A program made the position numbers and the translations under genes. Of a DNA stretch of 43,493 bases, positions 3,490 to 39,610 are shown piece by piece (the first letter of the stretch is position 1; the number at the start of each line of letters is the position of its first letter). Under the pieces are notes generated by a model. That model was not told where the DNA came from. It made no database searches and saw nothing but the letters and a program-made list of their open reading frames with translations. Source of the stretch: Fidelibacterota bacterium TCS56 (lineage in GTDB: Bacteria; Fidelibacterota; Marinisomatia; Marinisomatales; TCS56); the NCBI GenBank assembly GCA_001577055.1, contig LSCG01000005.1:1-43493 (forward strand), written 5' to 3'.

Positions 3490-3515
3490 GTATTTTGCAT
3501 ATTCACCGGAAAAAT

Positions 3516-3543: not shown

Positions 3544-3617
3544 TATATATTATTGCATTTCTTGACCAATTCATTGTACACTTTGATGAGTCATTTGTCA
3601 ACTAACATCAGAGTTAA

Positions 3618-4562: not shown

Positions 4563-4595
4563 GGTCTGGCGATTATTGATAGCAACAAATCGTTG

Positions 4596-4665: not shown

Positions 4666-4728
4666 AAAAACTATTTTACCAAAGAAGATTTGATTAAGAA
4701 TAGGTGTTGAAAATCTAAGGAGCAACCA

Positions 4729-5157: not shown

Positions 5158-5163
5158 ATACTG

Positions 5164-9414: not shown

Positions 9415-9469
9415 ATAGTGCAAGGTAGCAGTAGAACAAATAACAACCTAAGAAAAGAGGCACCATACA

Positions 9470-11124: not shown

Positions 11125-11128
11125 TATC

Positions 11129-12227: not shown

Positions 12228-12229
12228 TC

Positions 12230-16367: not shown

Positions 16368-16393
16368 TAAAGTAATTAGAGGTACAGACTAAG

Positions 16394-18112: not shown

Positions 18113-19359
18113 TGCCCACCTTTACCTATCTGACCAAGGATTCACAGGGGCAGCGGAACGAAGGTGAAATCCGTGCCGATAATGTGGATGCCGCCGCCAA
18201 GAAGCTGACGGCCGAGGAACAGATTATTATTCAGATTAAGGAGGTAGACACCTCCTGGGATTTCATTGGCCCGTTTCTGGATGAAATCTCCCTGTCGATT
18301 GAGCGTATTAAAAATCGGATTCCCCTGAGCAACCTGGTTTTTTTCACGCGCCAGTTAGCCACTATGTTTTCCGCCGGATTAACTCTGGAACGCTCGATTC
18401 AGGGACTGTCATCCGAGGAAAAACATCCCAAGCTGAAAAAGGTACTGACCCAGGTGGCGGAAAATATCCGCAAAGGTCTGAACCTGTCCGAGGCGCTGCA
18501 GCGCCACCCCGGTGTGTTTAACAGTTTATACGTTGCTCTGGCCCGGGCCGGTGAGGTCAGTGGTAACTTGCAGGAGATTCTGGACGAACTGGCCACCTAT
18601 CTTGAGAACCTGGATGATACGCGCCGCAAGGTGAAGTCTGCCATGACCTATCCGGTCCTGATGGTGTTCTTCCTGATTCTGATGATTTTGGGCATGTTGA
18701 TGTTTATCATCCCCATGTTTTCTGATATTTACGCCCAATTGGGTGCCGACCTGCCGGCAGCAACATTAATGTTGGTTTCGGGCAGTAAATTGATGACGGC
18801 CAATTTCCAGCCGATTCTTCTTTTTACGACCATTTTTGCAGCGGTTTTTTGGTTATTCAGCAAGACTAAGCGTGGCGGATATTTGTTTGACAGTATAAAA
18901 TTGAATACACCCGTTTTCGGTGACCTGCTCAATCAGTCGATTATGAATAAATTCGCCAAAACCCTGGGAATTTTGCTGGGAGCCGGTGTACCGGTGCTGG
19001 AATCAATGGCGCTGATGAAACGGATTGTGGATAATCGGGTTTATGAGCAAGCAGTGGAGTTGGCCTCCGAATATATTCGCGATGGATTTGACATCAGTAC
19101 GGCCCTGCGCCGGACGGAGGTTTTTCCATCAATCATGCTGCAGTTGGCTTCCACCGGCGAAGAAACCGGGGAGCTGAGCAGTCTGCTGGATCGGGCCGCC
19201 GATTATTATTATAAACAGGTAACCGCCCTGGTAGATCGGATGACAACGCTGATCGAACCTTTGCTGATTGTAATGGTGGGTGGTGTGATCGCTTTAATGG
19301 TAGTGATTACCTATCTGCCGGTATTCCAGATGGGTATGGCGTTACAATCGGGCTTATAG
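18112..19359 (+). CDS. pilC: Type IV pilus inner-membrane platform protein PilC (GspF family)
   Basis: PilC is the polytopic platform that couples PilB and PilT to pilin insertion. The 415 residues have two homologous T2SSF domains (about 80-205 and 280-405). Each has the FTRQLATMFSAGLTLERSIQ-like pattern and ends in membrane helices (about 175-200, 225-250 and 380-405). LARAGEVSGNLQEIL and ASTGEETGELSSLLDRAADYY are family hallmarks. It follows pilB with an overlapping start and is directly followed by pilD. Confidence 0.95.
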   Translation: MPTFTYLTKDSQGQRNEGEIRADNVDAAAKKLTAEEQIIIQIKEVDTSWDFIGPFLDEISLSIERIKNRIPLSNLVFFTRQLATMFSAGLTLERSIQGLSSEEKHPKLKKVLTQVAENIRKGLNLSEALQRHPGVFNSLYVALARAGEVSGNLQEILDELATYLENLDDTRRKVKSAMTYPVLMVFFLILMILGMLMFIIPMFSDIYAQLGADLPAATLMLVSGSKLMTANFQPILLFTTIFAAVFWLFSKTKRGGYLFDSIKLNTPVFGDLLNQSIMNKFAKTLGILLGAGVPVLESMALMKRIVDNRVYEQAVELASEYIRDGFDISTALRRTEVFPSIMLQLASTGEETGELSSLLDRAADYYYKQVTALVDRMTTLIEPLLIVMVGGVIALMVVITYLPVFQMGMALQSGL

Positions 19360-20127
19360 GTGGAACCACTGGTTTTTGTACCGTTTTTCATTTTAGGAAC
19401 GATTTTCGGCAGTTTCCTGAACGTAGTCATTTACCGCCTGCCGCGGGGCGAATCACTGGTAAAACCACGCTCGCATTGCCCCGAGTGTAAAAATAAGATT
19501 CCCTTTTATCGGAATATCCCCCTAATCAGTTTTGCGGTACAGGGCGGCCGCTGTAACCAGTGCGGACAAAAAATCGCCTGGCGCTATCCACTGGTAGAAA
19601 TAATTAGCGGACTGATTTGGGGGTTTTGTTTCACAAATTTGGTATTACCGGAGGCGCTTATTGCCGTTTCGATGTGGGGGCTCTTACTGGTGGTGGCCTG
19701 GCTTGACCAATCGCATCAAAAAATACCAGTGATTTTATTATTACTGACGATGTTTACCGCTTTAACCTCAGTGATATTGGGTGCGAGCTATTGGCGTTTG
19801 GCCGTTATGGGTGCGATCATCGGTGGCGTTATTCCGGGCCTGGCGGCCGGTATAATGTTTTTAATTAGCAAAACCGCCGGATTGGGCGCTGGTGATCTGT
19901 TGTTGGGATTGTCACTGGGAATTTGGCTGGGACCTTATAATATTCTGCTGGCCCTGATCCTGGCTTGCGGATTAACACTAGTGATTTGGGGCGTGAATTT
20001 CCTGCGTAGAAAATCCACCGGGGACCAGGCAATTGCCTTCGCACCGTATTTGATTATTGCCACGGCAATTGTGTACATTACAAGTTATTATCGCAATGAT
20101 TTAATCGAAGGATTGTTCTTCAATTGA
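19360..20127 (+). CDS. pilD: Prepilin peptidase/N-methyltransferase PilD
   Basis: PilD is an inner-membrane aspartyl protease that removes prepilin leaders and methylates the new N-terminus. The 255 residues begin with the FGSFLNVVIYRLPRG signature. The cytoplasmic zinc loop is intact, with C40-x2-C43 and C65-x2-C68. The two catalytic aspartates are probably Asp116 (WLDQSHQKIP) and Asp179 in GAGD of the GxGD motif; the lysine commonly following that motif is Leu here. Seven or eight hydrophobic helices are visible. Translation starts at GTG directly after the pilC stop. It should process the prepilins of this operon. Confidence 0.93.
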   Translation: MEPLVFVPFFILGTIFGSFLNVVIYRLPRGESLVKPRSHCPECKNKIPFYRNIPLISFAVQGGRCNQCGQKIAWRYPLVEIISGLIWGFCFTNLVLPEALIAVSMWGLLLVVAWLDQSHQKIPVILLLLTMFTALTSVILGASYWRLAVMGAIIGGVIPGLAAGIMFLISKTAGLGAGDLLLGLSLGIWLGPYNILLALILACGLTLVIWGVNFLRRKSTGDQAIAFAPYLIIATAIVYITSYYRNDLIEGLFFN

Positions 20128-20140: not shown

Positions 20141-23100
20141 ATGGAAAACACGGTTATGATTACTGCACTGCTTCTATTGCTGGTTGCAACGGGGGGCGCC
20201 GCTACCCAGCAAGCTCAGACGCAATCTGCCGCTAACGGTTTCGCGATGAAATCTGCTTACACCAGCGGAAATATTATCAATTTTCGATTGCCTCAGTATG
20301 AATTGAATCAGGTGGAGGAATTCGGCAACCAGTTTGTCAAACTGGAAATCAGCGACGCCGGGACCGTGGTCCAACCCGGAGAACCGTATTTGCCAAGTCT
20401 TAGTACGCTGTATGTTGTTGATCCCGGTAAATCGTATGACGTAACCATCAGGGTGATCGAAACTGAGCTGGTCAGGGATGTGAACCTGTTGCCTCATCAA
20501 ACCTGGGATCAGGTTGATGGTGGAATCCAGGCTTTGAATCGCGATCAATCTGTCTATCTTTCTGAGCAGTTTCCCGCCACCAATATAATGGTATCCGAAC
20601 CGTTGGTAATGCGTGATCTGAATCTGGTGCAGGTCACCGTAACTCCTTTTAATTATTCACCATTATCCCGCAATCTGGAAATTATTACCAGGGCGGAAAT
20701 TGAATTACACGAATCTGAGGCCAGCCTGGAGCGATTTGTCCCGGCAAAACGTTCGGCAGCCTTCGAAACCCTCTATCGTTCCCTGGCCGTCAATTACGAT
20801 CAATTTATGGCAAATATCCCCTATCAGAAGCCTTCGATTCTGTATGTCCTGCCTGCTAACTCTTCTTCGATTCAGGCCACGGTGAATCTATTGCTGGACT
20901 GGCGAAAAAAATGTGGGTATGAGGTCCATCAGGTTGACCTGTCAACTACCGGCAGCACAGCGCAAAATGTCAAAGATTTTATCCAGAATGCTTACACTAC
21001 CTGGAGCAACCCACCTGAACACGTGACTTTTGTGGGTGATGCCGAGGGTAGTTATAATATTCCTACCTGGCCCGATGTTTGGTCGTATTATAATGGCGAT
21101 GGCGACCACCCCTACGCTTGTCTGGTAGGTGGTGATAACCTGCCGGAAATTTTCCTGGGGAGAATATCATTTTCTTCCACCAGTGAGCTGTCTACGATTA
21201 TTGCGAAAACCGTTAATTATGAATCTAATCCCTACCTGGGGGAAAACTGGTTCAAACGGGCTATTCTGGTCAGTGATGCCTCATCGTCCGGTATATCTAC
21301 TGTTATAACCAATGAGTTTGTGCAGATGCTGATGGAAAACGATGGTTATTTTGACGTGCGGACACTGTACAGTGTCGGCAGTTCCCATCCCAACGCCAGC
21401 CAGATGGTAACCCAACTGAATGACGGCGGCACATTCTTCAATTATCGTGGATATTTAGGTGTCTCCGGGTTTGGCAGCGATGATGTGAACCTGTTGAACA
21501 ACGGCTACCGTTTGCCGGTGGCCACCATCTTGACCTGCGGTTCCGGATCGTTCGGCTCTGGAACTTCACTCAGTGAAACCATCGTCAGAGCCGGCACCCT
21601 GAGTGTGCCCAAGGGAGCTGTCGCCTGTATCGGTACGGCCACCTTAGGTACGCACACCATGTTTAACAACTGTGTGGCTATGGGTTTTTACTCCGGCATC
21701 TTTCTGGATGGAATCGAGACCGCCGGAGCGGCCCTGATGCGCGGCAAACTGCAGCTCTATCTGACCTACCCAACCAATCCCAATAATTATGTTTACATCT
21801 TTTCGCATTGGAACAGTCTGATTGGTGATTCGGCTTTGCGCATGTGGACCGCCATGCCGGTCCGTGTGACCGTCACAACGCCTCCCTCGGTGCCCATCGG
21901 TACCAATACGCTGGAGGTCAATGTAACTCACCTGGTAGGTGGTCTGCCGGTTGAAAATGCCCTGGTAACACTGCTGAAGGGCAATGATGAAATTAACGAA
22001 TCGATTCTGACCGATGCTGACGGTATCGCCAGCCTTCCCATCAACTCGTATTTAACCGGAGCAATGGACCTTACGGTCACCAGAAAAAACTATAAGCCGG
22101 AAACGATGACCGTTGTTCTCACCTCCCCCGGTGAAAACATCAATATTTCCCAGTTGCCGACGATAATCAGCGATGATAATACCGGTCAATCGGCAGGTAA
22201 TTCCAATGGTGATATAAATCCCGGTGAAACCATTGAATATACCACTTTGCTGAAAAATTTTGGTAATCAGGACATTAATGATGTATCGGCCAAACTCGTC
22301 AGCCGCACGAACGGCGTTAATATGCTGGTTGACAGTCTGTACTTTGGCACGATTACCGCTGGTACCAGTGATGCCGGCGCTGGTGATTTTGTCTTTTCGG
22401 TTAGCGAGGGCCTTTCCGATGAAGTGCAACTGGAATTCGACCTGGTGATCACTTCCGGCAGCGGTGGGATCTGGACCAGTGCGCTTGATCTGGAGCTGGC
22501 GGGCAGCCAGTTGGCGGTGGATGGCGTAGTGGTTTCCGCGGTTGGGGGGATCCTCGATCCTGGTGAAACCTCGGATATGATGTTTGCGGTGGAAAATCTG
22601 GGTCAGATTAATGCTACCGGCATCACCGGTATAATTTCTACCCCGGCCAGCGGAATTGAGATTCTCGATGATGAAGGCAGTTGGGATTTAATACCGGTAG
22701 GCACGACCATCACCAATACTACCGATGTGTTTTCTCTGAGTGCGGCCGAAAGCATCATTCCCGGGACCGCGGTGGACATTTATCTGAATATCGCCACTGC
22801 TGAGGGTTATAGTGCCAATATTCCCGTCTCCATCAGAATCGGAACCGCCGATGTTACCGATCCTACCGGACCCGATGAGCATGGTTATTATATTTATGAT
22901 TCCGGTGACATTTTTTACTCGAACGCGCCCTTTTTCAACTGGATTGAAATCAGTGCGGATCAAGGTGGCCCCGGTTCCAATACCTATCTCAGCGATGACG
23001 GGAACAATGATGATGATGTTACCACTCTGACCCTGCCATTCAATTTCAGGATGTACGGTATCAATTATCGTGATATCTCCATCTGCAGTAACGGCTGGAT

Positions 23101-23749
23101 TGGAATGGGTGATACTCCCATGCGCTCTTTCCGCAATTATCATTTACCCGGCGCCGCCGGTCCTTCACCGATGATTGCGGCTTTTTGGGACGATCTGAAA
23201 ACGACTTACGGCGGGGACGTCTGGCACTGGTATGACACCGATCACCATCAGTACATCATCCAATGGTCCGAGTTGCGTACCTACTATAATGATGATGTGG
23301 AAACCTTCCAGGTGATTCTGCGAGATCCCCAGTACTATTTTACGCCCACCGGCGACGGCGAAATATTGATTCAGTATCTGGAATTCAATAATACCTCCCA
23401 GACTACCAGCAGCGCCACCAATCACGGCAATTATTCCACGATCGGGATCGAGGATCACACCGCCCAGGTTGGTATCGAATACACCTTTGGCAATGTGTAC
23501 GCTCCCACGGCCATGGCCCTGCAGGATTGTACCGCCATTTTAATTACCACCAAGGGCAGCACTATCCGCTTACGTGGTGATCTGAATGATGATAATATCC
23601 TGGATATTTTTGATGTCCTGGGAATGATCGATTATATCCTGGCCGGGAATCCCGGTTCCCTGAATCCCTATCTGGCGGATGTGAACGATGATGGCGTGGT
23701 CAATATCCTTGATATGATTCGCATTGTTCAGACAATAATGGAATATTAA
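20141..23749 (+). CDS. Gingipain-like C25-family protein with C-terminal dockerin
   Basis: This is a 1202-residue exported protein. A hydrophobic signal (about 5-22) is followed by a C25 propeptide-like region (about 45-200), then a C25 peptidase domain (about 230-560) with ILYVLPANSS, FVGDAEGSYNIPTW, FLGRISFSS and the nucleophile-position Cys466 in LTCGSGSFG. The GHG motif that carries the catalytic His in gingipains reads RGYLG here (Tyr438). An Ig-like domain, CARDB-like regions and a beta domain (about 915-1135, with SNGWIGMG and IAAFWDDL) follow. Residues 1143-1202 are a type I dockerin with two Ca-binding repeats (GDLNDDNILDIFD and ADVNDDGVVNILD). ATG 20156 is an alternative start. It lies 13 bases after pilD. 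Confidence 0.85.
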   Translation: MENTVMITALLLLLVATGGAATQQAQTQSAANGFAMKSAYTSGNIINFRLPQYELNQVEEFGNQFVKLEISDAGTVVQPGEPYLPSLSTLYVVDPGKSYDVTIRVIETELVRDVNLLPHQTWDQVDGGIQALNRDQSVYLSEQFPATNIMVSEPLVMRDLNLVQVTVTPFNYSPLSRNLEIITRAEIELHESEASLERFVPAKRSAAFETLYRSLAVNYDQFMANIPYQKPSILYVLPANSSSIQATVNLLLDWRKKCGYEVHQVDLSTTGSTAQNVKDFIQNAYTTWSNPPEHVTFVGDAEGSYNIPTWPDVWSYYNGDGDHPYACLVGGDNLPEIFLGRISFSSTSELSTIIAKTVNYESNPYLGENWFKRAILVSDASSSGISTVITNEFVQMLMENDGYFDVRTLYSVGSSHPNASQMVTQLNDGGTFFNYRGYLGVSGFGSDDVNLLNNGYRLPVATILTCGSGSFGSGTSLSETIVRAGTLSVPKGAVACIGTATLGTHTMFNNCVAMGFYSGIFLDGIETAGAALMRGKLQLYLTYPTNPNNYVYIFSHWNSLIGDSALRMWTAMPVRVTVTTPPSVPIGTNTLEVNVTHLVGGLPVENALVTLLKGNDEINESILTDADGIASLPINSYLTGAMDLTVTRKNYKPETMTVVLTSPGENINISQLPTIISDDNTGQSAGNSNGDINPGETIEYTTLLKNFGNQDINDVSAKLVSRTNGVNMLVDSLYFGTITAGTSDAGAGDFVFSVSEGLSDEVQLEFDLVITSGSGGIWTSALDLELAGSQLAVDGVVVSAVGGILDPGETSDMMFAVENLGQINATGITGIISTPASGIEILDDEGSWDLIPVGTTITNTTDVFSLSAAESIIPGTAVDIYLNIATAEGYSANIPVSIRIGTADVTDPTGPDEHGYYIYDSGDIFYSNAPFFNWIEISADQGGPGSNTYLSDDGNNDDDVTTLTLPFNFRMYGINYRDISICSNGWIGMGDTPMRSFRNYHLPGAAGPSPMIAAFWDDLKTTYGGDVWHWYDTDHHQYIIQWSELRTYYNDDVETFQVILRDPQYYFTPTGDGEILIQYLEFNNTSQTTSSATNHGNYSTIGIEDHTAQVGIEYTFGNVYAPTAMALQDCTAILITTKGSTIRLRGDLNDDNILDIFDVLGMIDYILAGNPGSLNPYLADVNDDGVVNILDMIRIVQTIMEY

Positions 23750-23786: not shown

Positions 23787-25010
23787 ATGATCCCGACTAT
23801 ATTGCCAATTGTTGTTTTACTGGCAATAGTGGCGTCGCTGGTTGCTTACGGTCTGGTGGAATTCCACAATCACCAGCGAATCCTGGCCACTATCCCGCTG
23901 CGTATTCAAATTAATGGCACCCGCGGTAAATCCAGTGTCACCCGCCTGGTAGCTGCCGGATTGCGGGCCGGGAATATTCGCACTTTTGCCAAAACAACCG
24001 GGACCGCTCCACGGGTAATCGATGCCGAGGGGAAAGATCACATCATCCATCGTTTACGCAAGGCTTCGATCGGGGAACATATCCGCCTGATGAGATTCTT
24101 TGCCCGGGAAAAACCCCAGGCGGTAGTGATGGAATGTATGGCTGTTCAGCCGCAATACCAGTGGATTGCCGAGCAGCAAATGGTTAAATCACATATCGGG
24201 GTTATTACCAATGTGCGCCCGGACCACCTGGATAAAATGGGCGCCACCGAAGAAGATATCGCCCGCTCAATGGGCAATACGATTCCCGGTAATGGTCGCT
24301 TTGTCACCGCCGATGAGCGCTATCATCCACTCTATACCAAGCTTGCCGGCCGTCGTAATTCCACGTGTCATTTGTCCGATGAACAGCGGATCTCACGCGC
24401 CGATCTGAATCGTTTTGCCTACCTGGAGCATCCCCAGAATGTGGCCCTGGCGCTGGATGTCTGCGAAATGGCCGGCGTGAAGCGCCAGACAGCCCTGGAT
24501 GGCATGGTTAAAGTCCATCCGGACCTGGGAGCCCTGATTGTCTGGCGATTGAAATTCGGTCCCACCCGTCTATCATTTATCAACAGCATGGCCGCCAATG
24601 ATCCGGTCTCCACCCTGAATATCTGGCGGATGCTAATCGACCGTTATCCCGTGGAAGGTGATATCTGTGTATTTCTTAATACGCGCGAAGATCGCCTCTA
24701 TCGTACCAAACAATTACTGCAGTTGACAATGGAGGAAATCAAACCCCAGCGCTTGATTGTAAGAGGGAATAATGTGTCCACCACAATCAGGCATTTAAGG
24801 CACTATTCACCACTGACCAAAGTGGATAAATTCGGTCTGGATGCGGACCACGATGCGGTAATTGCCGCCATGCAACAATTACCGGAAGATTCTTTAATTT
24901 TCGCGATAGGCAACCAGGTAGGGGCCGGACAGGAGATTGTTGACCGGCTGCGGGATTATCGAACAAAACACACCAGGCAAACTTCATCGGGGGATAGTAC
25001 CAATGACTGA
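23787..25010 (+). CDS. pgsB: Poly-gamma-glutamate synthase subunit PgsB/CapB (Mur-ligase-like amide ligase)
   Basis: PgsB is the ATP-dependent amide ligase that polymerises glutamate at the inner membrane. The 407 residues have an N-terminal membrane anchor (about 3-24), the P-loop INGTRGKSSVTRLVAAGLRA (GTRGKSS at 44-50), FAKTTGTAPRVI, the VMECMAVQPQYQW segment and GVITNVRPDHLDKMG, which are diagnostic of CapB/PgsB within the Mur-ligase superfamily. The substrate amino acid cannot be read from sequence. It starts 37 bases after the dockerin protein and overlaps pgsC by eight bases, heading a five-gene coupled operon. Confidence 0.94.
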   Translation: MIPTILPIVVLLAIVASLVAYGLVEFHNHQRILATIPLRIQINGTRGKSSVTRLVAAGLRAGNIRTFAKTTGTAPRVIDAEGKDHIIHRLRKASIGEHIRLMRFFAREKPQAVVMECMAVQPQYQWIAEQQMVKSHIGVITNVRPDHLDKMGATEEDIARSMGNTIPGNGRFVTADERYHPLYTKLAGRRNSTCHLSDEQRISRADLNRFAYLEHPQNVALALDVCEMAGVKRQTALDGMVKVHPDLGALIVWRLKFGPTRLSFINSMAANDPVSTLNIWRMLIDRYPVEGDICVFLNTREDRLYRTKQLLQLTMEEIKPQRLIVRGNNVSTTIRHLRHYSPLTKVDKFGLDADHDAVIAAMQQLPEDSLIFAIGNQVGAGQEIVDRLRDYRTKHTRQTSSGDSTND

Positions 25011-25446
25011 AATCACCATCGGACTGGGAATCGCCATGAGCCTGATTCTGTCTGAGACCCTGGGAGTCACGGCCGGCGGAATCATCGTTCCCGGTTACAT
25101 CGCCCTGTATTTGCATCAGCCGCTGCAGATCATAATTACGCTGGCGGTGGCCCTGATTGTCCTGGTGATTATCAAGGTGCTGAGCAATTTCATGTTTATC
25201 TATGGCAAACGACGCATGGTATTGGCGTTGATTCTGGGCTTTCTGGGGGGATATATCAGCCGTAAATATATTTTTTCGCCGATCAATGATTTATCACTGG
25301 CAGTGATTGGAAATATCATCCCTGGTTTAATCGCCAGTTGGATGGATCGGCAGGGGGTTACCCGTACAATTTCGGTTATCATGGTAACGGCGGTTATTGT
25401 CAAACTGGCCATCATGCTGATTGCGGGAGGCTCAACCAATGTCTGA
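25003..25446 (+). CDS. pgsC: Poly-gamma-glutamate synthase membrane subunit PgsC/CapC
   Basis: This 147-residue integral membrane partner of PgsB has about five hydrophobic segments. The hallmark N-terminus MTEITIGLGIAMSLILSETLG, written here as two overlapping signatures (TEITIGLGI and SLILSETLGVTAGGIIVPGY), is that of CapC. I chose ATG 25003 because GGGGGAT precedes it and the protein then begins with the family's own N-terminus; longer in-frame starts would add a polar stretch. It overlaps pgsB and pgsW at its two ends. Confidence 0.93.
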   Translation: MTEITIGLGIAMSLILSETLGVTAGGIIVPGYIALYLHQPLQIIITLAVALIVLVIIKVLSNFMFIYGKRRMVLALILGFLGGYISRKYIFSPINDLSLAVIGNIIPGLIASWMDRQGVTRTISVIMVTAVIVKLAIMLIAGGSTNV

Positions 25447-26593
25447 TAACCACAAAGACCAAATGTTTCTGCCTACGATTCAGAAGACCTCAACCCTGGT
25501 TATCCTGGCGCTGATCTGTATAATAGCCTATTCCGTGGCAGTTGTCTCGAAAGTGGAAATCATTTCTGACACTCACGACACCAAGATTCGCGCAGCCCGC
25601 CAGATGGCCGCTGCTATGACCGAACTGAAATCCCAAAGGATGGAAGCCGGGGTATTTATGGATCTGGAAAATGATCCCAACGAAACCGGCCTGGTCGGGA
25701 CGCAATTCAGTCTGATTACCACAGATGAAGGTGACCTGGACGCCAAGCTGACGACCCTGGATCCCAATTTTGCCGCCGCCATAGTGGAATTATTCAGTCG
25801 CGCCGGATTGCAGGCCGGGGATACGGTGGCTGTCGCCGTTACCGGTTCCATGCCCGGCGCCAATATGGCGGTATTAATCGCCTGTGCCGTGCAGAATATT
25901 CACCCGGTAATGATTACTTCACTTGTAGCCTCCCAGTGGGGCGCCAACCTGCCTGATTTCACCTGGCTGGATATGGAAGCTAAATTGTATGCCGGCGATT
26001 ACATCACCGTTCGTTCGCTGGCAGCCTCGATTGGTGGACGCAATGACGTGGGGCGGTTACTGAGTCCCCGAGGCAGAGAAATTATTACCGACAAAATAAC
26101 CGAACATCAGATTGAGCTGATTCGTGAAAGCGGGTTGGCGGCCAGCGTTGCCCGGCGTAAAGCCACATATGAAAAAGTTGTGCCACTGGAAAACTATGAC
26201 GCCTTTATCAATATCGGCGGCGGGGTTGCCAGTTTAGGAACCAGCTTCAAACATAAATTGTTACCGCCTGGAATTGTCCTGCGCCGGCAGGTGGAATCGA
26301 TTTCCCGTTCCGGCGGTATCGAAGGCGCCCTGGTGGAATTCAGCCGCCGGGATGTGCCGGTGCTGCACATCCTGAATATCAGCGCCCTGACCAGACAGGT
26401 AGGCATGCCTTTTGCGCAGATCCCGATTCCTGAGATTGGTGTGGGGGAATTGTATGCTGAGATTCGCTATAATATCTGGGTCACAGCCATTAGTTTTATT
26501 ATCGTCGCAGGATCAGTAATTTTCGTGGGCTATCGCAGCCATCAGCAAATCAAAGCAAGAATGAGAGAGCATGAGCCGGACTCCGTTTTATAG
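25439..26593 (+). CDS. pgsW: Poly-gamma-glutamate system protein PgsW
   Basis: This 384-residue protein matches the PgsW-type family found next to pgsB and pgsC, mostly in Gram-negative bacteria. It has an N-terminal membrane helix (about 13-33), a large extracytoplasmic domain with the VAVAVTGSMPGANMAVLIAC segment and WLDMEAKLY, an IGGGVASLG glycine loop, and a C-terminal membrane helix (about 347-367) with a basic tail. Its biochemical role is not established to my knowledge. ATG 25439 has GGGAGG eight bases upstream and overlaps pgsC. Its stop overlaps the next gene by 23 bases. Confidence 0.85.
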   Translation: MSDNHKDQMFLPTIQKTSTLVILALICIIAYSVAVVSKVEIISDTHDTKIRAARQMAAAMTELKSQRMEAGVFMDLENDPNETGLVGTQFSLITTDEGDLDAKLTTLDPNFAAAIVELFSRAGLQAGDTVAVAVTGSMPGANMAVLIACAVQNIHPVMITSLVASQWGANLPDFTWLDMEAKLYAGDYITVRSLAASIGGRNDVGRLLSPRGREIITDKITEHQIELIRESGLAASVARRKATYEKVVPLENYDAFINIGGGVASLGTSFKHKLLPPGIVLRRQVESISRSGGIEGALVEFSRRDVPVLHILNISALTRQVGMPFAQIPIPEIGVGELYAEIRYNIWVTAISFIIVAGSVIFVGYRSHQQIKARMREHEPDSVL

Positions 26594-27455
26594 AATCCTT
26601 GCATATATTGGAATCATTTTAATGTGTTCCGATTTTGCCTATAGTGAATTAATGCGACCTTCCACCGGGGGGGAGAATAAAGAAATCCTGATTATCAACT
26701 CCAAACAACGATTGTACTACAACGTACATGACAATGGCCTGACCTACTCCATTAATGGTCCCCGACGGATGGAGCTTATCGGTCGCTATCCCTCCAAATC
26801 ACGACGGCGAAAAGCACGCCCGTTTGGCTATACGATCGTAATCGACAACCAGGATACGATTTACGTCAACCACAGCTACCAGGTTAATCGGCGACTGCGT
26901 TCGGTGCAGCGTCCCAATCTGTATTTTACCTACTCGGGTAATTATTTTTTCAACCTGTCGTCAGGGAGGCACGACATACAAATTCTTCCCGGGGAGGAAC
27001 AGAAGCTGAATACCCTGATCAGGGTATTGGGGAAGGAATTCAATGGCAGCAGTGATCAGAGACGGAACCTGATGCCGGCCATTTCCCATGCACCGAAGCA
27101 TATCAACTCGGGCAATCGCGAAATCGATTATTATGAATTGACCCATGCCAATCCCCTGCAGGTAATGGCTGAAGGCCCCGGTACCCTGAAGATCACCAGT
27201 CGACTGGCTTTCGAAACCTGGATGGGCAGCAGAGCAATCTACCGAATCTCGGTCAAGGAAGGGATAAAGGTGATCGGCACCTATTATTTTACCGCCGAAC
27301 CCTCCGCCGTCTCGACCATTGTTGAAAAACCGGAATGGATACCGGGTAAATGGCGCACCTGTGAAATCCCCATACCGGATGGACGGCATATTTTCGATAT
27401 CAACCTGTTGGAGAACGACCGGACCGTATTCCTGCGTTTTACCGAGTATCGATGA
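26571..27455 (+). CDS. Secreted protein of unknown family in the pgs operon
   Basis: I do not recognise this 294-residue protein. It has a signal peptide-like N-terminus (about 6-25: FYRILAYIGIILMCSDFAYS) and no further membrane helix, so it is probably periplasmic or secreted. It is rich in beta-strand patterns and basic residues (KSRRRKARP near 75-83; RRLRSVQR near 106-113). The first half (about 38-150) and second half (about 185-290) both look like beta-sandwich modules; TYSINGPRRMELIGRYPS and VMAEGPGTLKITSRLAF contain a similar GP-x-x-hydrophobic pattern, suggesting a duplicated fold. It overlaps pgsW by 23 bases and the following barrel gene by four, so it is almost certainly part of the polymer system. 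A basic periplasmic guide for an anionic polymer is a guess. Confidence 0.75.
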   Translation: MSRTPFYRILAYIGIILMCSDFAYSELMRPSTGGENKEILIINSKQRLYYNVHDNGLTYSINGPRRMELIGRYPSKSRRRKARPFGYTIVIDNQDTIYVNHSYQVNRRLRSVQRPNLYFTYSGNYFFNLSSGRHDIQILPGEEQKLNTLIRVLGKEFNGSSDQRRNLMPAISHAPKHINSGNREIDYYELTHANPLQVMAEGPGTLKITSRLAFETWMGSRAIYRISVKEGIKVIGTYYFTAEPSAVSTIVEKPEWIPGKWRTCEIPIPDGRHIFDINLLENDRTVFLRFTEYR

Positions 27456-28486
27456 AAAGATATTTCCTGATCTTAGTTTTGATATCCTGGGTTTCGGCCC
27501 AGGATTTTACCGCCCACCTGATTCCAACGCTTAGCTGGGATATAAAGCTTCGTTCGGGCTATGACAGTAACAGCTTGCGCTTATCCTCTGACGAGCAGGA
27601 CGAAGCCGGTCTTGAACCCACCATTCTAGGATCGGTTAACACATTCGATTCCTACTATCAGCGCATTGCCGCCCGCCTTACCGGCCGCTACCGCCTGTCG
27701 GGTAATAAACAGGAACTGGAAATACGCCTGGAACCGTCTCTGACCGGCTATATGCAGGTAAGCCAAAAACGGTACAGTGGGGTCACGCTGTCGGTGGATT
27801 ATACCTGGGGCGCCTACCGCCATCTTGTCGGACAGATACGGCGCTTGAATCAATATTATTTACGGGATTATCGTGACCGGGATCGCAGCACGGAAAATTA
27901 CGCCGGCTGCTATTTTTCGGACGCCGATCACAGTCTTGAATTATCACTGCCGCTGGCCTACCGGGTCTGGCTGGCGGCGGAAGGCGGCTATCTGCAACGG
28001 TATTATGAAAAGCCATTTACCGAATTTGATCTGGATATATATTATGGCTCCCTGCGTTTTAACTCTTCGCGCTGGCGTCCGTTCACCGTTGGACTACGCT
28101 ATAAATACGGTTATGCCGCCAATATTACTCTGCATGCTACCGCCCGCGCCAGTACTCTGGATCGATCATACCGCTTCGTGGAGATATACTTGCCACTACG
28201 ATATCGAATGGCCGGTACGATGTTATCGTCAGTGGGTATCAATCTGAAGACGGAAATGCGTCAGTACGCTGTTGAGGACTATGATGATCCCCTGCACAGC
28301 GGCCGTTTTCACCGGGATGTGAAACTCGATTTCTGGGTCAGGCGGCCCGTAAGTCGTGATATTAATCTGGAATTGACCCTGCGCCATCGTACCCGCACCA
28401 CTGATTCGGCCTTCGAGTGGGTGGAAGACCTGAAAAGTTTTAGGCAAATCCAGTGCCGGCTGGATCTGACCTGGAAACTCTATTAA
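27452..28486 (+). CDS. Outer-membrane beta-barrel protein in the pgs operon
   Basis: This 344-residue protein has a short signal peptide (MKRYFLILVLISWVSAQ). Alternating polar/aromatic strands cover its whole length (for example RIAARLTGRYRLSG, RPFTVGLRYKYGY, EIYLPLRYRMAG, INLELTLRHRTR). The C-terminus ends in a strand finishing with Tyr (LDLTWKLY), the usual signature for outer-membrane barrel insertion. Roughly 14 to 16 strands can be picked out by eye. Coupled by ATGA overlap to the unknown secreted gene, it is a natural candidate for an outer-membrane exit channel or anchor of the polymer. Its stop overlaps the convergent downstream gene by four bases. Confidence 0.8.
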   Translation: MKRYFLILVLISWVSAQDFTAHLIPTLSWDIKLRSGYDSNSLRLSSDEQDEAGLEPTILGSVNTFDSYYQRIAARLTGRYRLSGNKQELEIRLEPSLTGYMQVSQKRYSGVTLSVDYTWGAYRHLVGQIRRLNQYYLRDYRDRDRSTENYAGCYFSDADHSLELSLPLAYRVWLAAEGGYLQRYYEKPFTEFDLDIYYGSLRFNSSRWRPFTVGLRYKYGYAANITLHATARASTLDRSYRFVEIYLPLRYRMAGTMLSSVGINLKTEMRQYAVEDYDDPLHSGRFHRDVKLDFWVRRPVSRDINLELTLRHRTRTTDSAFEWVEDLKSFRQIQCRLDLTWKLY

Positions 28487-29724
28487 AATTTAAAATAGAC
28501 GGCGAAAATATAGGGCTGGAAGTGGATGCCGAAACGCAGCCAGTCCTTGAATGAGTAGATGAAGCCCAGATCGAAATGATAGGGGCTGACTTTGGGTTTA
28601 TCCGGTTTGTCCATGGTTAATTCTCCTCCGCGATCGAATAATCCTTCTGATCGATGCCACCATTCCACGTACCACGGATCCCAGAATAGCTCGTAATTCA
28701 TAATCAGATTTTTACGGATATCTATCGCACCGCCATAATAAACCCGCGTCAGCAATTCACCCACCAGTGGATGTTGTCCTACCACTGCACCCAGGGTATG
28801 GCTGATCCGGCCACTGGTTTTGGCTCGGGAAGTGGAATAGGTGTAAGCGATGAATAACTCGTAATATTCCATTGGATCGGGGCGGTCGTAGTCGATCCAG
28901 CCCGAGTCAAACCCTTCCCATTCGGTATTATATCTTCGTTCCGTATTATCCAGATTGATCTCACTGCCGATTGTCTGATAGCCGCCGTAAAAAACAGTGG
29001 TATCGCCTTGCGGAATCCAAACATAATTATTCTGATCATCGTAATCAAAAAATCCGGTATTGAAATCCAGTTCGCCTTCCATCCACTCATATTTATCCGG
29101 TACCATCCGAGTATGATAATGGGCGCCGACAGCCAGGGAGTGTTCCCTATCCACGTTACCGGACTTGAAAATTTGCAGTTTGGGGCGCAGATTAAAATTG
29201 CCGTTGAAATAACCGGCCCAGCGTGAGGTTATCTGAAAGTTGCCGGTTACACCGAAACCCCATGACAGACCGCTCACATACAGGACGCCCGGTTCCAGCG
29301 TGTAACCGGTTGGATCATAAAAAATATCAATCTGTCGTTCATCACCAAGGGTGAATTTTTGCGGTTTTTCAGTCCGGCCGGCCGCTTTCATTGTGCCATA
29401 CTCAATATTGCTGATCAGGTTCTTCTCAACCGTCAGCAGTCCGAGTGACGATTGTAAACGCAGTTCTGTTTCATTTTCTGTGATCAACAGTCCCTGTAGC
29501 AGGTTTCCATCCTTCAGATGCACAATGACCATTTCCTGCTTGAGCTGATTGCGATCGATTTTTACCACCCCGAAGGAGGTCTTCACCGAAATGGTGTTAT
29601 CCAGACTATCTTGATCAACGACAGTACCTGTGATTATATCACCGTTTTTCAACTTGTAAACCTGTTGATCCTGACCGGCTGCCAGGCTACCGATCAATAA
29701 TACGCAAATCATTACCCTGTTCAT
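28483..29724 (-). CDS. Outer-membrane protein: two N-terminal SH3-like beta repeats plus barrel
   Basis: This is a 413-residue exported protein on the minus strand with a signal peptide (MNRVMICVLLIGSLAAGQ). Residues about 22-60 (VYKLKNGDIITGTVVDQDS) and 66-108 (VIVHLKDGNLLQGLLITENE) are two copies of a small beta module with a K-N/D-G-x-x-x-x-G core. The remainder (about 125-413) is rich in amphipathic strands (WAGYFNGNFNLRPKLQIF, YELFIAYTYSTSRAKTSG) and ends with Phe (FAVYFKF), fitting a DUF481-like outer-membrane barrel. AGGAT precedes the ATG by eight bases. It is monocistronic and converges with the pgs operon. Function unknown. Confidence 0.75.
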   Translation of the reverse strand: MNRVMICVLLIGSLAAGQDQQVYKLKNGDIITGTVVDQDSLDNTISVKTSFGVVKIDRNQLKQEMVIVHLKDGNLLQGLLITENETELRLQSSLGLLTVEKNLISNIEYGTMKAAGRTEKPQKFTLGDERQIDIFYDPTGYTLEPGVLYVSGLSWGFGVTGNFQITSRWAGYFNGNFNLRPKLQIFKSGNVDREHSLAVGAHYHTRMVPDKYEWMEGELDFNTGFFDYDDQNNYVWIPQGDTTVFYGGYQTIGSEINLDNTERRYNTEWEGFDSGWIDYDRPDPMEYYELFIAYTYSTSRAKTSGRISHTLGAVVGQHPLVGELLTRVYYGGAIDIRKNLIMNYELFWDPWYVEWWHRSEGLFDRGGELTMDKPDKPKVSPYHFDLGFIYSFKDWLRFGIHFQPYIFAVYFKF

Positions 29725-30017
29725 ATTACAATCCTGTTTGTTAAGGATTTAACCCGGGACTGCCAGGTTTTGCACATGAGTCATTTTACATGCAGGCGTG
29801 GCAATTAACAAGCGCAAAATGAGCCTGCTGATTATTCCCTTAATCGACCAACGCCCCAGGTTGACCGGACTCACAAATTACTTGTCTTGAACTGGCTAAA
29901 TTAATGCCAGCGGCCATAACCACTAGCAGGACTAGATTAAGTTTCAAATGAGTTAAAATCATCATAACTTTATTGGATGAATCAAACCCAAATGACCGCA
30001 ATAATAATTCGCTGCTA
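29725..30017. promoter_or_regulatory. Divergent intergenic region
   Basis: These 293 bases separate a minus-strand barrel gene from the plus-strand exported-protein cluster, so promoters for both directions should lie here. I see no convincing -35/-10 pair on either strand and no strong hairpin. A TTG at 29973 opens the lipoprotein frame, but it would place a polar extension before the signal peptide. Confidence 0.4.
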
Positions 30018-31064
30018 ATGAAGAAACAAATCCACTTAATGATTCCGGTGCTCGCCCTCTTAATCCTGAGTGGTTGTCTTGAGCCTGATACTGAAAATAT
30101 CTGGTCACTTGATCCGGCCTATACTATCGAAACAGGCGGGTATTGCCGCCATCTGGATATTGCCGGTGATCGCTTATTTATTGCCGCCGGACAGGGTGGG
30201 CTTCAGGTTTGGGATATCACCGATTTTCTTGATGGGAGTGGTGACCCACAATTATTGAACCATCTGCGCATCAACAGCGAATTGCCGGTTCACAAAGACA
30301 TCCGGCAGGTGATTTATGCCAGCAATGCCCGGCAGATAATTGCCCTCGAAACTGGCGAGCGCCCCCTGCAAATCGATTATATCCGGCCGGCCAACCCGAT
30401 TTTTACCGGACAGTTGATGAGCGAGAAAACCGAGCAGATTCATGTAATTGATGACAGCCTGGATTTTCTGCTTTTTGCCGCCGATGAGGACGATGGCATA
30501 AAAATTTCCGAATTCAGCGGTTTTTTTATCAATGACACCACCATCATTTGGTCGCCCAATGCCAGTGATGATATCGAGTATAACGTAGTTGGCCTGCCCA
30601 CCGGATTGAGTTATCATGACTCACTGATTGTCCTTACTCGTGAACAATTGGGTGTGGCGTTGTATCGGTTCCGCGGTCTTGGGATCGCGCCCTTGCCGAT
30701 TAATGCCATCGATACGGAAGGCACGGCCGAAAGCGCCACATTTCACGGAGATAAAGGTGTTTTCGTAGCCAGTGGCGACGGTGGTTGTTATTATTTTTCC
30801 CTGTCCGGCGATTCTCTGACACTGGCGCATAATTCGGCCCATTTTGCCAAGGACCTGAGGGTAGAGCACTGTGCCTACGAAGATGAGGTATTAGCCCTGG
30901 CCCTGGGTTCGCGGGGGCTGGCGCTGTATGATATTTCTGAGCCGACTGATCCTCAATCGCGGGGCGTCCATGATATAGGTTATGTTTATACTACCACATT
31001 TCATAACGGTTTACTGTATGCCGCCACCCGCGAAGGGCTTCAGATTTTCCACATCGAAAAATAA
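30018..31064 (+). CDS. LVIVD-repeat beta-propeller lipoprotein
   Basis: This 348-residue protein has a clear lipoprotein signal (MKKQIHLMIPVLALLILSGC, lipobox LSGC). The mature part contains repeats of the LVIVD type: LDIAGDRLFIAAGQGGLQVWDITD near the N-terminus, and LALALGSRGLALYDISEPTD and GLLYAATREGLQIFHIEK at the C-terminus, with degenerate blades between. Such repeats build a beta-propeller at the cell surface. I chose ATG 30018, since upstream codons (from TTG 29973) add a polar Asn-rich stretch before the signal. It is the first gene of a cluster encoding exported proteins. Molecular target unknown. Confidence 0.82.
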   Translation: MKKQIHLMIPVLALLILSGCLEPDTENIWSLDPAYTIETGGYCRHLDIAGDRLFIAAGQGGLQVWDITDFLDGSGDPQLLNHLRINSELPVHKDIRQVIYASNARQIIALETGERPLQIDYIRPANPIFTGQLMSEKTEQIHVIDDSLDFLLFAADEDDGIKISEFSGFFINDTTIIWSPNASDDIEYNVVGLPTGLSYHDSLIVLTREQLGVALYRFRGLGIAPLPINAIDTEGTAESATFHGDKGVFVASGDGGCYYFSLSGDSLTLAHNSAHFAKDLRVEHCAYEDEVLALALGSRGLALYDISEPTDPQSRGVHDIGYVYTTTFHNGLLYAATREGLQIFHIEK

Positions 31065-31107: not shown

Positions 31108-34100
31108 ATGAGAAACCTGATTACCGTACTGCTGCTTAGTCTTACTCTTTCAGGCCAGTTTTACTGGCAGGAGAACGGTTTACCGCTGCGGCAGGGGATC
31201 AATATCGAATGGCAGCGCACCATCGCCCCGGCTGAAAATGGCAGCATCATTTTTGTCTGGTCCGATGTGCGTGATGGCCAACGCGATGTTTATGCTCAGA
31301 AAATCGATACAACCGGGACCCTTTTGTGGGGCATTGGTGGAATGGCGGTAACCAGTATTGCCGGGCGGCAGGAGGATCCGGTGGCCATTACCGACGGTAA
31401 TGGTGGCGCCTTCATCGCCTGGGTTGATTACCGCAATGGCGCCATGAGCGACATCTACCTTCAACACCTCGATGCTACCGGTTCTTTATTGCTGGATCCG
31501 GCCGGGATACCGATTTGTACCGCCGACAGTGTTCAGATTTCTATCTCGATGTGCACCGACAGCCTCGGTGGTGTATTTCTGGTATGGCAGGATAAGCGCA
31601 CCGGGGTTGATGACGATATTTATGGGACCCATGTGGGAGCCGATCATCAGGTAGTGGATCAGGGACTGGGCGTTCCCATCGCCATTGGTTCAGGTGCCCA
31701 GATTGAAAAAAGTCTGGAGTACGCTGGCAATAACACGGCTCAGGTTGTCTGGAAGGATGCCTATTCCGGGAATACCAATGTTTTCGGCCAGCGCCTGAAT
31801 ACCGATATGAGTTTCGTCTGGACCGAGAAACTGCCGGTTGCCGCCACCGCTGATCTGGAGAGCGTACCACGCACCACCTTCATCGGCGGAGACACAGCCC
31901 TGATTGCCTGGCAACAAACCGATTCAACAGACCGGGCCATGTACCAGTTGACGGATAGCAATGGATTGGTATTACCGGAAGCCCGGGCCGTCAGTAATAA
32001 CCCCGCTTCGCAGGTGGGTCCGCGGGTCAAACGGGATGGCAGCGGCAACGTGTTTATCATCTGGGCTGATTACCGGCATAATTCGCAGATTTGGAAATAC
32101 TATGCCCAGAAGGTAAGTCCTGCCGGGAATCTAGTCTGGGATAGCTCCGGTGTGGCGCTGGAACAGGATTTGACTAATGCCAATAATGCCCGTTTTACCA
32201 GTGACGGCAATGGCGGTATCTGGTGTGCCTGGGAACGGGGTTTATTTCCGGAAACAGAGATTCATGTACAACACATTCTCAATGATGGCAGCGCCGCATC
32301 CGGCGCCAACGGCTCACCGGCCATGACAATTGACGGTTATCAGTTTTCACCGATTTTATCCGGGGATGCCAATCATGGCGCCTGGGTGGTGGCCGCCAAC
32401 CAGGAAAGCGGCAATATTGATCTGGTAACCCAGAGAATTACATCTGCGGGCAACCTGGAAATGGGGGCTGCGGGACTCACCACCATGGCGGGCATGGATG
32501 GTGATGTGACTTACCCGGCCGGTTTCACTACAGACCAGAACTCGGTGGTTATGGTATGGGAAGACAGTCGTAATGGCAAAGAATTCTACGGGGTGACGTT
32601 TGATACCAGCGGACAAATATCAGCGATCGAGGACGGCTCTCAACTCACGGACCTGGATGGTTTCTCCGAACCAGGCAGAAACAATCCATACTACCTGTAT
32701 CACGAAGGTTATCTGTATATCGCCAGTTTTACCGGCGGGGAAGGTTCCAAATCCCTGCGCTTGAATAAAGTCGATTCCCAATTTCAGAGTCAATGGGACC
32801 TGGGCGGTATTACCGTGTACAATTCCTTACAGGACCAGCAGTATGTCAGGCTGGTTCCGGTCACCGGCGGTATCGGCGTTATCTGGTCTGAGAATCGTAA
32901 CGTGACGGCCTTTGATTTATTTTACCAGCGCTACGACGGGGATGGTAATCCCCAGTTGGCGGAAGGTGGTGTAAGTTTGAGCAGCCAACAGGTGGACGAG
33001 TATTCCGAAGCGGTTTTGCCGCTTGACAACGGTGATTTCATCCTGGTCTGGAAGGAGGATTTCTGGCAGAACCAGGATTTATATATCCAGCGCTTTAACG
33101 TCGATGGTTTACCCTCAAGTGAATGGTTCGTCGGCCGTTACGCCATGTGTAACGCCACTTTTAATCAATTTGAGGCCGTGGCGGTTAACGCCACCGACCG
33201 TGAAGAAATTTTTGTAATCTGGCAGGATATGCGCTCCGGTCCCATCGATTTATATGCTCAGGTAATCGATTATACCGGGATTATCCAATGGACCAACAAC
33301 GGCCAGCCGATTACCACCGCGCCGAATGATCAATCCAATCCATCGCTGGCCTATGATGCGGCTACCGGCCGGGTAATGACGGTTTGGGAAGACTTCCGCG
33401 ATGGTAATGATTATAATTTGTGGGGACGCCTTATCGATCTTAATGAGGCGGGACCCACCGATACCAATTTTGTGATTTGCGCCGAACCGACCTACCAGAC
33501 CAATCCGGTCGTTGCCAGCGTATATCCCGGGACATTCCTGTTCTCCTGGGACGATGAGCGTGGCATCGCCGGTGAAACCCCGGCGGTCTCCGGTGGTCTG
33601 GATATTTATGCCCAGGTGCTGCAAATCGGCGCCGGTGATTTCGGCTTCCCATCCGGTGGCATCGCCCTGGCGGAAGAATACCATAATCAAATGCAGCCCC
33701 AGATCGTAAAAATTAACGACGGGGCCGAACCTGTCGATGACCTTTGGCTGGTATTCTGGCGTGATTTGCGCAGCTCAGGAAAGGCGGATATCTACGGCTT
33801 ATACGGACAGGTAATTTCAGTAGCGGATGCCCTCGGCGCCGAAGATGATCATCATCTGCCAGAGAAATTTGCCGTTAATGCGGCTTATCCCAATCCGTTT
33901 AACGGCCTGGTAAAATTCGATGTGGCCATTCCCCGGCGGCAGCCGTTGCAATTGACAATCCATAATCTACTGGGTCAGGTAATTCACAATCGAACCGTTT
34001 ATCCCCTCCGGGCCGGGACAATCAGAATCAACTGGAACGGACGGGATAATTTCAATCGGCCCTTGCCCAGCGGTGTGTATTTCTATCAGCTCAGCGACGG

Positions 34101-34140
34101 TCATACCTACGCCACCGGTAAAATAACTTTCCTGAAATAA
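31108..34140 (+). CDS. Secreted beta-propeller-like repeat protein with T9SS sorting domain
   Basis: This 1010-residue exported protein has a signal peptide MRNLITVLLLSLTLSGQ. Residues about 35-920 consist of some 14 to 16 repeats of 50-70 residues with the core hhhhWxDxRxG...DIYAQ (for example FVWSDVRDGQRDVYAQKID and VIWQDMRSGPIDLYAQVID), suggesting two or more beta-propellers. The last 85 residues form a T9SS type A C-terminal domain (AAYPNPFNGLVKFDV, then LTIHNLLGQVI, and the final GVYFYQL...GKITFLK strand). AAGGAA precedes the ATG. It should cross the outer membrane through T9SS and be attached or released at the surface. Binding target unknown. Confidence 0.85.
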   Translation: MRNLITVLLLSLTLSGQFYWQENGLPLRQGINIEWQRTIAPAENGSIIFVWSDVRDGQRDVYAQKIDTTGTLLWGIGGMAVTSIAGRQEDPVAITDGNGGAFIAWVDYRNGAMSDIYLQHLDATGSLLLDPAGIPICTADSVQISISMCTDSLGGVFLVWQDKRTGVDDDIYGTHVGADHQVVDQGLGVPIAIGSGAQIEKSLEYAGNNTAQVVWKDAYSGNTNVFGQRLNTDMSFVWTEKLPVAATADLESVPRTTFIGGDTALIAWQQTDSTDRAMYQLTDSNGLVLPEARAVSNNPASQVGPRVKRDGSGNVFIIWADYRHNSQIWKYYAQKVSPAGNLVWDSSGVALEQDLTNANNARFTSDGNGGIWCAWERGLFPETEIHVQHILNDGSAASGANGSPAMTIDGYQFSPILSGDANHGAWVVAANQESGNIDLVTQRITSAGNLEMGAAGLTTMAGMDGDVTYPAGFTTDQNSVVMVWEDSRNGKEFYGVTFDTSGQISAIEDGSQLTDLDGFSEPGRNNPYYLYHEGYLYIASFTGGEGSKSLRLNKVDSQFQSQWDLGGITVYNSLQDQQYVRLVPVTGGIGVIWSENRNVTAFDLFYQRYDGDGNPQLAEGGVSLSSQQVDEYSEAVLPLDNGDFILVWKEDFWQNQDLYIQRFNVDGLPSSEWFVGRYAMCNATFNQFEAVAVNATDREEIFVIWQDMRSGPIDLYAQVIDYTGIIQWTNNGQPITTAPNDQSNPSLAYDAATGRVMTVWEDFRDGNDYNLWGRLIDLNEAGPTDTNFVICAEPTYQTNPVVASVYPGTFLFSWDDERGIAGETPAVSGGLDIYAQVLQIGAGDFGFPSGGIALAEEYHNQMQPQIVKINDGAEPVDDLWLVFWRDLRSSGKADIYGLYGQVISVADALGAEDDHHLPEKFAVNAAYPNPFNGLVKFDVAIPRRQPLQLTIHNLLGQVIHNRTVYPLRAGTIRINWNGRDNFNRPLPSGVYFYQLSDGHTYATGKITFLK

Positions 34141-39400: not shown

Positions 39401-39610
39401 CCTGCAACGGAGCGTATTTCGGTGGCGATTTACGATTTACGCGGGCGAGAGATAGTCAAGCTGGCCGATCGGCGATTCACCGGCGGTCGGCATATATTGA
39501 CCTGGCATGGTCTTGATCGTTATGATCGACCGGTGGCCTCAGGCACTTATTTCGCTGTGGTGAGCCACCGGGGTGGCCGGTCGGTAAGTAAGTTGCTCCT
39601 GCTTAAATAA
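36452..39610 (+). CDS. Gingipain-like C25-family protein with T9SS sorting domain
   Basis: This 1052-residue exported protein overlaps the M14 gene by 22 bases. A signal peptide (about 7-23) is followed almost directly by a C25 domain (about 62-415) with no propeptide of the usual size. Visible signatures are LLIGDVDGVSAMPS, CFIGRFSVDS and the nucleophile-position Cys303 in FVCNSADF. The catalytic-His GHG motif reads RGWGDANGW, with Trp270 exactly 33 residues before Cys303. An Ig-like domain (about 415-505) and a beta domain (about 725-945, with SSNGWISF and IAAFWDDLE) are shared with the 20141-23749 protein. Here the C-terminus is a T9SS sorting domain (FPNPFNPSTRIQFNL to LLLLK) instead of a dockerin. 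Confidence 0.87.
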   Translation: MHHSEKLKSGLLIFLTLSTLTAADLFRGMTRDQILTRTLPLSYGALLEEAYGIPRTQMNLERGTYLIIVPDNLQNYLTTPYDFVAFKKSQGFKTIVKTLTEFGSTAEDIKANILQYINDDPMLEYILLIGDVDGVSAMPSFYYGPENDATDQKYTHLLGDDSIPDCFIGRFSVDSITELVVIINKTINYHRDPVNSSGWLDNALIVAGNYSNTIPIPITPKWTSYWLRDELLDWGYESVDTVFYPPTQQGAAMIQSAINDGVGIVNYRGWGDANGWHYPEFHVADVAGLANGNLTPVFTSFVCNSADFANNVDPCLGEALVRAGSPTVASGAVAVVGPSDLHTSTKFNNVINTYMYDAMLDHGVRELAPAMLAGQLGLQTEFPQLDGPGEGQEFYLHVYNILGDPSLNMHLLTPAEFTLTVAPISAADGMIDVIVTTGNDVAVADAVVAVLQDGILVDRGITDQNGQVIIHGAGLEGTLDLYVNKSGYAQGYETLTVEAATRPMIISDFNITDFSDQELTSLFPGNLVKVLPRLMNTGTTALPAGSGSITAGNGLQVVQSDFTYPAVNPGEVADATPVSVRLRAFGPAANWVINLSDNEGALGSIALTVSRPVFAVEPLTAALVPGTSFSGSLNLTNFSAAEYSGLQGELTSLTDSLTVTSGQSPQFSLAAWGTTANDGAFSGITGNVSPGSALTVRLHIFQDTVKIYSTDLALAAVPATATDPVAPDDYGYWAYDNADAGFTQAPTYDWVELSDNSQASLHRLDDDDHVDLALPFNFRYYGQDYDQVTVSSNGWISFVPCMIDYFWNFSIPMALGPAAQIAAFWDDLEVVGTDSIRVYTWHDETNGRFIIEWDRALNGYNETTEETFEIILYDQQSMPTASGDGVIELHYLAIDDVDATKNYSTVGIESADQNSGVQYVFNNRYAPGASALNGGLAIRFTTEAPAHYVPSLAVDEIVPSGEFRLLPAFPNPFNPSTRIQFNLPATERISVAIYDLRGREIVKLADRRFTGGRHILTWHGLDRYDRPVASGTYFAVVSHRGGRSVSKLLLLK

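Follow-up and report, generated by a model that had tools for sequence, protein, structure and literature searches.

Deep linkage of a basic secreted protein and an outer-membrane barrel to pgsBCW points to a probable poly-amino-acid synthesis and export system in two-membrane bacteria

How two-membrane bacteria export a poly-glutamate-type polymer is an open question. Diderms require an extra outer-membrane protein, and the poly-gamma-glutamate (PGA) model of CapsuleFinder contains none, though PGA systems have been found in most phyla (PMC5542703). The question is raised here by a five-gene block at positions 23787–28486 of a contig of 43,493 nucleotides from a metagenome-assembled genome of Ca. 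Neomarinimicrobiota (assembly size, 1.94 Mb; 88% complete); the entire contig was analysed and is hereafter called the window. The block consists of five open reading frames on the forward strand: pgsB, pgsC, pgsW, and two genes given the working names ExpP (gene 4) and ExpB (gene 5). The successive overlaps are 8, 8, 23, and 4 bases, and both the coordinates and the overlaps reproduced those of an initial annotation made from the sequence alone, in which the last two genes had been assigned to periplasmic guidance and outer-membrane passage of the polymer. The identities of the synthesis genes, the exclusive and deep linkage of ExpP and ExpB to one clade of PgsW, and the folds and charges of the two proteins led us to consider that the block probably encodes machinery dedicated to making and exporting an anionic poly-amino acid, most likely PGA, in a two-membrane cell, and that it is a likely answer to the above question.

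PgsB and PgsC are the synthesis enzymes that pass the polymer outward in Bacillus. In the window, pgsB (capB; 23787–25010) encodes a Mur-ligase-type ATP-dependent amide ligase, the polymerase subunit, which scored 398.6 bits against TIGR04012 (cut-off, 222.7), matched PF08245, and possesses the P-loop motif NGTRGKS. The product of pgsC (capC; 25003–25446), the multi-pass inner-membrane partner of PgsB, scored 115.1 bits against TIGR04011 (cut-off, 96.45) and matched the Pfam family CapC (PF14102) with an E-value of 1.8e-30. The third gene, pgsW (25439–26593), adjoins these two and occupies the position of pgsA; its product has N- and C-terminal transmembrane segments with a periplasmic domain between them, and scored 290.8 bits against TIGR04332 (cut-off, 100). 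All three proteins exceed the curated cut-offs of their families, in line with their initial identification as PGA-type synthesis proteins. PgsB was detected above the cut-off in 98 of 245 Neomarinimicrobiota genomes, and its genes lie almost exclusively at pgsW loci or on contigs ending there. Judging from the sequences of these enzymes, the polymer would most likely be an anionic poly-amino acid, namely PGA. Sequence searches assigned PgsW to no Pfam family and found no homologue in the PDB, and a search of open-licence papers turned up none on pgsW.

The initial annotation had also pointed out that the window contains no recognisable pgsA/capA. This absence extends to the whole host assembly, 88% complete as it is, in which no match to PgsA/CapA (PF09587) was found. 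Elsewhere in the phylum, CapA (PF09587) is encoded in 87 of the 245 genomes, both with and without pgsW, and never at pgsW loci. These CapA genes were rejected as the missing PgsA, because they lie away from pgsW loci and occur whether or not the genome has pgsW. In many of these genomes, the PGA_cap/CapA domain is part of a very long protein (about 1590 residues). As pgsA is dispensable for polymer production in B. subtilis (PMC6029982), the lack of PgsA counts for less than it might seem and does not prove its replacement by PgsW. PgsW may replace PgsA/CapA as the periplasmic co-factor.

The assignment of ExpP and ExpB is supported by their distribution. Among about 80 pgsW loci of Neomarinimicrobiota, ExpP was found in 76 and ExpB in 75, in the order B-C-W-4-5 and mostly with equally small overlaps. 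A scan of genome contigs found further loci in Bacteroidales, one KSB1 bacterium, and Ca. Electryonea. All of these loci possess ExpP, and all but two, which are Bacteroidales loci with the contig end close downstream, possess ExpB. The order pgsB-C-W-4-5 is kept in four phyla of the Fibrobacteres-Chlorobi-Bacteroidetes (FCB) group, namely Neomarinimicrobiota, Bacteroidota, KSB1, and the Electryonea phylum; pgsW itself was present in 14 of 396 sampled Bacteroidota genomes and in 39 of 39 genomes of the Electryonea phylum. In a quick tree of PgsW, the root of which is arbitrary, one clade (type I; Shimodaira-Hasegawa-like approximate likelihood ratio test support, 99) includes the PgsW of the window. 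ExpB was found in 131/131 and ExpP in 128/131 of the type I loci, and both were found in 0/18 of the loci outside the clade. These counts omit loci cut by contig ends; since only loci with identical PgsW proteins were merged as duplicates, a few genomes may count twice. The three type I loci without ExpP all belong to one genus and retain ExpB; in this genus, PgsW is longer (461 residues) and ExpB follows directly. The initial annotation had stated that rarity of the two genes beside pgsBCW in other genomes would speak against its proposal and had suggested a survey of FCB genomes; the homologues turned out to adjoin pgsBCW in all four phyla, and a second class of pgsBCW loci lacks both.

The same pairing was seen at the level of whole genomes. 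The ExpP profile matched 95 and pgsW 100 of the 245 Neomarinimicrobiota genomes, and 94 contained both. Six genomes (G021, G136, G173–G175, and G235) possess pgsW without ExpP, of which G173–G175 represent the genus mentioned above. In the single genome with ExpP only (G233), the contig end lies inside pgsW and a pgsW fragment is located beside the ExpP gene. Each exception traces to a contig end, to PgsW of the second type, or to the one genus; contig ends aside, ExpP in Neomarinimicrobiota occurs only beside pgsW. In addition, the pairwise identities of ExpP and ExpB correlate with those of PgsB and PgsW (r = 0.79–0.89), a correlation that also mirrors common descent and is supportive only. 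The association of ExpP and ExpB with pgsBCW is not due to chance.

The second type of pgsBCW locus, which lacks ExpP and ExpB, provides a comparison within the host itself, since one copy is present in the host genome (locus L034, positions 1983–8998 of another contig). The neighbours of this type are a gamma-glutamyltranspeptidase and an AstE/AspA-type amidohydrolase, together with DUF6305 and a DctM-like permease in the Bacteroidota relatives. The copy in the host also has a 2,4-diaminopentanoate dehydrogenase-like protein as a neighbour, and ten further loci of the second type were recorded. Because these loci have neither ExpP nor ExpB, PgsBCW as such needs neither, and one PgsW branch acquired or kept the two genes. 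Fourteen other loci, all from the Electryonea phylum, encode stand-alone PgsW homologues of about 300–360 residues with no pgsB or pgsC nearby, several of them beside gamma-glutamyltranspeptidase. These observations suggest a function of PgsW beyond polymer synthesis.

ExpP (26571–27455) had been described initially as an unrecognised protein with a signal peptide, and indeed it begins with a signal peptide and matched no Pfam or NCBIfam family above the cut-off; a sequence search against the PDB found no relative. AlphaFold predicted two beta-sandwich (jelly-roll-like) domains with a predicted local distance difference test score (pLDDT) of 93.5 and a predicted template modelling score of 0.65, the latter leaving the arrangement of the two domains with respect to each other less certain. 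The best Foldseek matches were tandem carbohydrate-binding modules, and the cellulose BcsB-BcsC fusion appeared at rank 20, with low whole-chain template modelling (TM) scores. ExpP is strongly basic, with an isoelectric point of 9.66 for the window protein and a median of 9.65. The basic residues that are invariant or nearly so include K45, R72, R151, and R211, of which R72 and R211 are invariant. Other exported proteins of these loci are acidic: the median isoelectric points are 4.24 for a propeller lipoprotein, 4.16 for a C25-fold protein, and 4.20 for a BNR protein. ExpB is also basic (median, 9.03), and the basic character of ExpP and ExpB amid an acidic secretome is what would be expected of proteins handling a polyanion such as PGA. 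The two predicted jelly rolls and the strong positive charge favour a periplasmic polymer-binding role of ExpP.

ExpB (27452–28486) possesses a signal peptide and ends with a tyrosine residue, and the AlphaFold model (pLDDT, 92.8) is a 14-stranded open barrel with no large plug domain. The initial reading of gene 5 as a beta-barrel with a C-terminal aromatic residue was thereby borne out, and the structure predictions that it had proposed gave confident models for both proteins. As with ExpP, no Pfam or NCBIfam family was matched above the cut-off and no PDB relative was found by sequence. Foldseek retrieved porins, including the 14-stranded OmpG and CymA (TM scores, 0.5–0.6), and ranked PgaA lower. 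Based on strand parity, 20% of the inward positions are Lys/Arg versus 12% Asp/Glu, with a median net charge of +8, and the inward residues Arg138, Arg270, and Arg315 are near-invariant. The lumen of ExpB is thus predicted to be electropositive.

The conserved unit is larger than the five genes of the initial annotation. A sixth member is a beta-propeller (LVIVD-like) lipoprotein (29973–31064, forward strand; lipobox LLILSGC), which was found downstream of ExpB in 65/65 Neomarinimicrobiota, 14/16 Bacteroidota, 1/1 KSB1, and 0/23 Electryonea-phylum loci with room for it. In the window, its gene is set apart from the ExpB gene by an opposite-strand gene (28483–29724), the product of which is weakly similar to Leptospira LA_3334 and to the LA_0442/LA_0875-type families; the other loci examined yielded no homologue of this protein at the corresponding position. 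The usual upstream partner is a secreted protein with a gingipain (peptidase C25) fold and a C-terminal dockerin repeat (20141–23749, forward strand; PF01364, 2.6e-52), which was present in 49/61 Neomarinimicrobiota and 12/16 Bacteroidota loci with room and is located downstream instead in some lineages. Alignment with gingipain R showed that the Cys position of this protein is kept and that the catalytic His is replaced by Tyr in the window, mostly by an aromatic residue in other Neomarinimicrobiota, and by Glu in most Bacteroidales; the replacements in individual homologues were Tyr, Trp, Phe, Ile, Glu, or others. From its sequence, the operon-linked C25-fold protein is predicted to be a conserved pseudo-peptidase. 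An active processing peptidase is doubtful in the absence of the catalytic His, and an assignment to PorU, the sortase of the type IX secretion system (T9SS), was rejected (34.3 bits versus a cut-off of 420).

Further genes surround this unit in the window. A BNR/propeller protein (31108–34140) and an M14 carboxypeptidase (34155–36473), both T9SS-tailed, are encoded downstream of the operon, as in many Neomarinimicrobiota, and another C25-fold protein, which carries a T9SS sorting tail (36452–39610), likewise lacks the gingipain His (NYRGWG). On the upstream side, type IV pilus/type II secretion-type genes (PilM, secretin, PilB, PilC, and PilD; 5164–20127) are followed, after short gaps, by the C25 gene and the pgs operon. 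They were rejected as part of the system because they are neighbours only within Neomarinimicrobiota.

We infer export, its direction, the protein contacts, and the polymer chemistry from the above observations as follows. PgsB and PgsC would polymerise the amino acid at the inner membrane and pass the chain across, as is established for the family, with PgsW probably acting in the periplasm in place of PgsA/CapA. ExpP may serve as a basic chaperone or guide that binds the polyanion in the periplasm and hands it to ExpB, and ExpB may provide the exit of the chain through the outer membrane via its electropositive lumen; these two roles are suggested by structure, charge, and linkage. The propeller lipoprotein and the catalytically altered gingipain-fold protein would join in most lineages, perhaps at the cell surface. 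The initial interpretation of the two extra genes is thus supported in part: the adjacency and the barrel fold were confirmed, and the periplasmic polymer-binding role of ExpP is favoured by fold and charge.

Other explanations of the same data were weighed. That ExpP and ExpB are an unrelated outer-membrane pair lying by chance beside an ordinary PGA synthase might be suspected because neither has a characterised relative. This possibility is very remote and is refuted by the linkage data: the two genes accompany nearly every type I locus across four phyla, at identities as low as about 20%, and are absent elsewhere, and they diverge in correlation with PgsB and PgsW. The type IV pilus genes, the sharing of which is restricted to Neomarinimicrobiota, are an example of mere synteny and contrast with this linkage. 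It is also unlikely that the system works inward, with ExpB as an uptake porin and ExpP as a periplasmic receptor for poly-amino-acid fragments that PgsBCW rebuilds or stores. By TM score, ExpB is matched best in Foldseek by OmpG and CymA, which are porins for uptake or diffusion, a peptidase-fold protein and the M14 carboxypeptidase are encoded near the operon, and the second pgsBCW type, with its gamma-glutamyltranspeptidase, AstE/AspA amidohydrolase, and DctM-type permease, looks catabolic. However, it is this second type that lacks ExpP and ExpB, and no permease for uptake across the inner membrane is conserved beside the type I loci. Furthermore, the outward movement of the polymer by the synthesis enzymes PgsB and PgsC in Bacillus and the tight overlap with synthesis genes, which is unusual for uptake, argue against an inward function.

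Another improbable alternative concerns the fate of the chain at the surface. By analogy with PorU, which attaches anionic lipopolysaccharide, and CapD, which attaches polyglutamate to peptidoglycan, PgsBCW with ExpP and ExpB might carry the chain to the surface for the gingipain-fold protein and the propeller lipoprotein to attach to secreted proteins or to hold, with no free capsule formed. The conservation of these two partners in three phyla and the T9SS-tailed secreted proteins downstream in the window are consistent with such anchoring, but the C25-fold protein is not PorU and has lost the catalytic His, and both partners are missing from the Electryonea-phylum loci. A dedicated synthesis-and-export machine remains our preferred explanation. 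Several points weigh against it. The identity of the polymer is assumed from the homology of PgsB and PgsC. Jelly-roll domains occur widely and bind diverse ligands, and the argument on the lumen and charge of ExpB comes from strand parity, not from an electrostatic calculation. The 14 strands of ExpB are fewer than the 16–18 of known polymer exporters (PMC9601211), so that the bore may be narrow, and its fold matches OmpG and CymA are uptake porins. In addition, one genus has ExpB without ExpP, a Wza-type exporter gene is present elsewhere in the host genome, and the lipoprotein and C25-fold partners are unexplained and absent in the Electryonea phylum.

What is new in this locus is poly-amino-acid synthesis with a candidate trans-envelope route of its own, for which ExpP and ExpB are two named candidates. 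The pgsBCW loci with and without these genes constitute a clean comparative control, the full system can be mined from metagenomes, and PgsW offers a testable alternative to PgsA. The findings also suggest that a poly-amino-acid exopolymer with a bearing on marine organic nitrogen is produced by a deep-ocean phylum (the SAR406 group) and by its FCB relatives.

Compared with PgsBCA/CapBCA of Bacillus, the block shares PgsB and PgsC that reach the curated cut-offs and the order B, C, and a third membrane protein, but it has PgsW for PgsA/CapA and two additional periplasm/outer-membrane genes, and no capD, capE, or pgsE was recognised among its genes. PGA-type synthesis in two-membrane or FCB bacteria has precedents in the operon of Fusobacterium nucleatum (Candela 2009, cited in PMC3815933) and in those of Ca. 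Cloacimonadota, which consist of CapB, CapC, and CapA (PMC13082233). The relevant passages of these sources describe Gram-positive-like capBCA and name no outer-membrane step, whereas the block in the window has two linked envelope genes. EpsL (TIGR03014), a PEP-CTERM-associated exopolysaccharide outer-membrane protein, showed a weak recurrent match to ExpB (7 of 56 members; best value, 1.1e-5), but the window ExpB scored only 17.8 bits, far under the curated cut-off of 275. With PgaA, BcsC, AlgE, and Myxococcus EpsX/WzpX, the block shares an outer-membrane barrel encoded with a polymer synthase, as seen for ExpB in every type I locus, and with BcsB a jelly-roll periplasmic partner; Foldseek retrieved both PgaA and BcsB-BcsC. 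It differs from this group in the strand number of the barrel (14 in the ExpB model, outside the range of 16–18), in having no tetratricopeptide repeat domain or outer-membrane polysaccharide export partner among the conserved genes, in the presumed poly-amino-acid nature of the polymer, and in showing no significant sequence relation. A further possibility, which we advance tentatively, is that diderms possess a separate secretion route for poly-amino acids, composed of a narrow 14-stranded barrel lined for anions, a basic jelly-roll feeder, and a surface complex of the propeller lipoprotein and the gingipain pseudo-enzyme, and distinct from known polysaccharide export.

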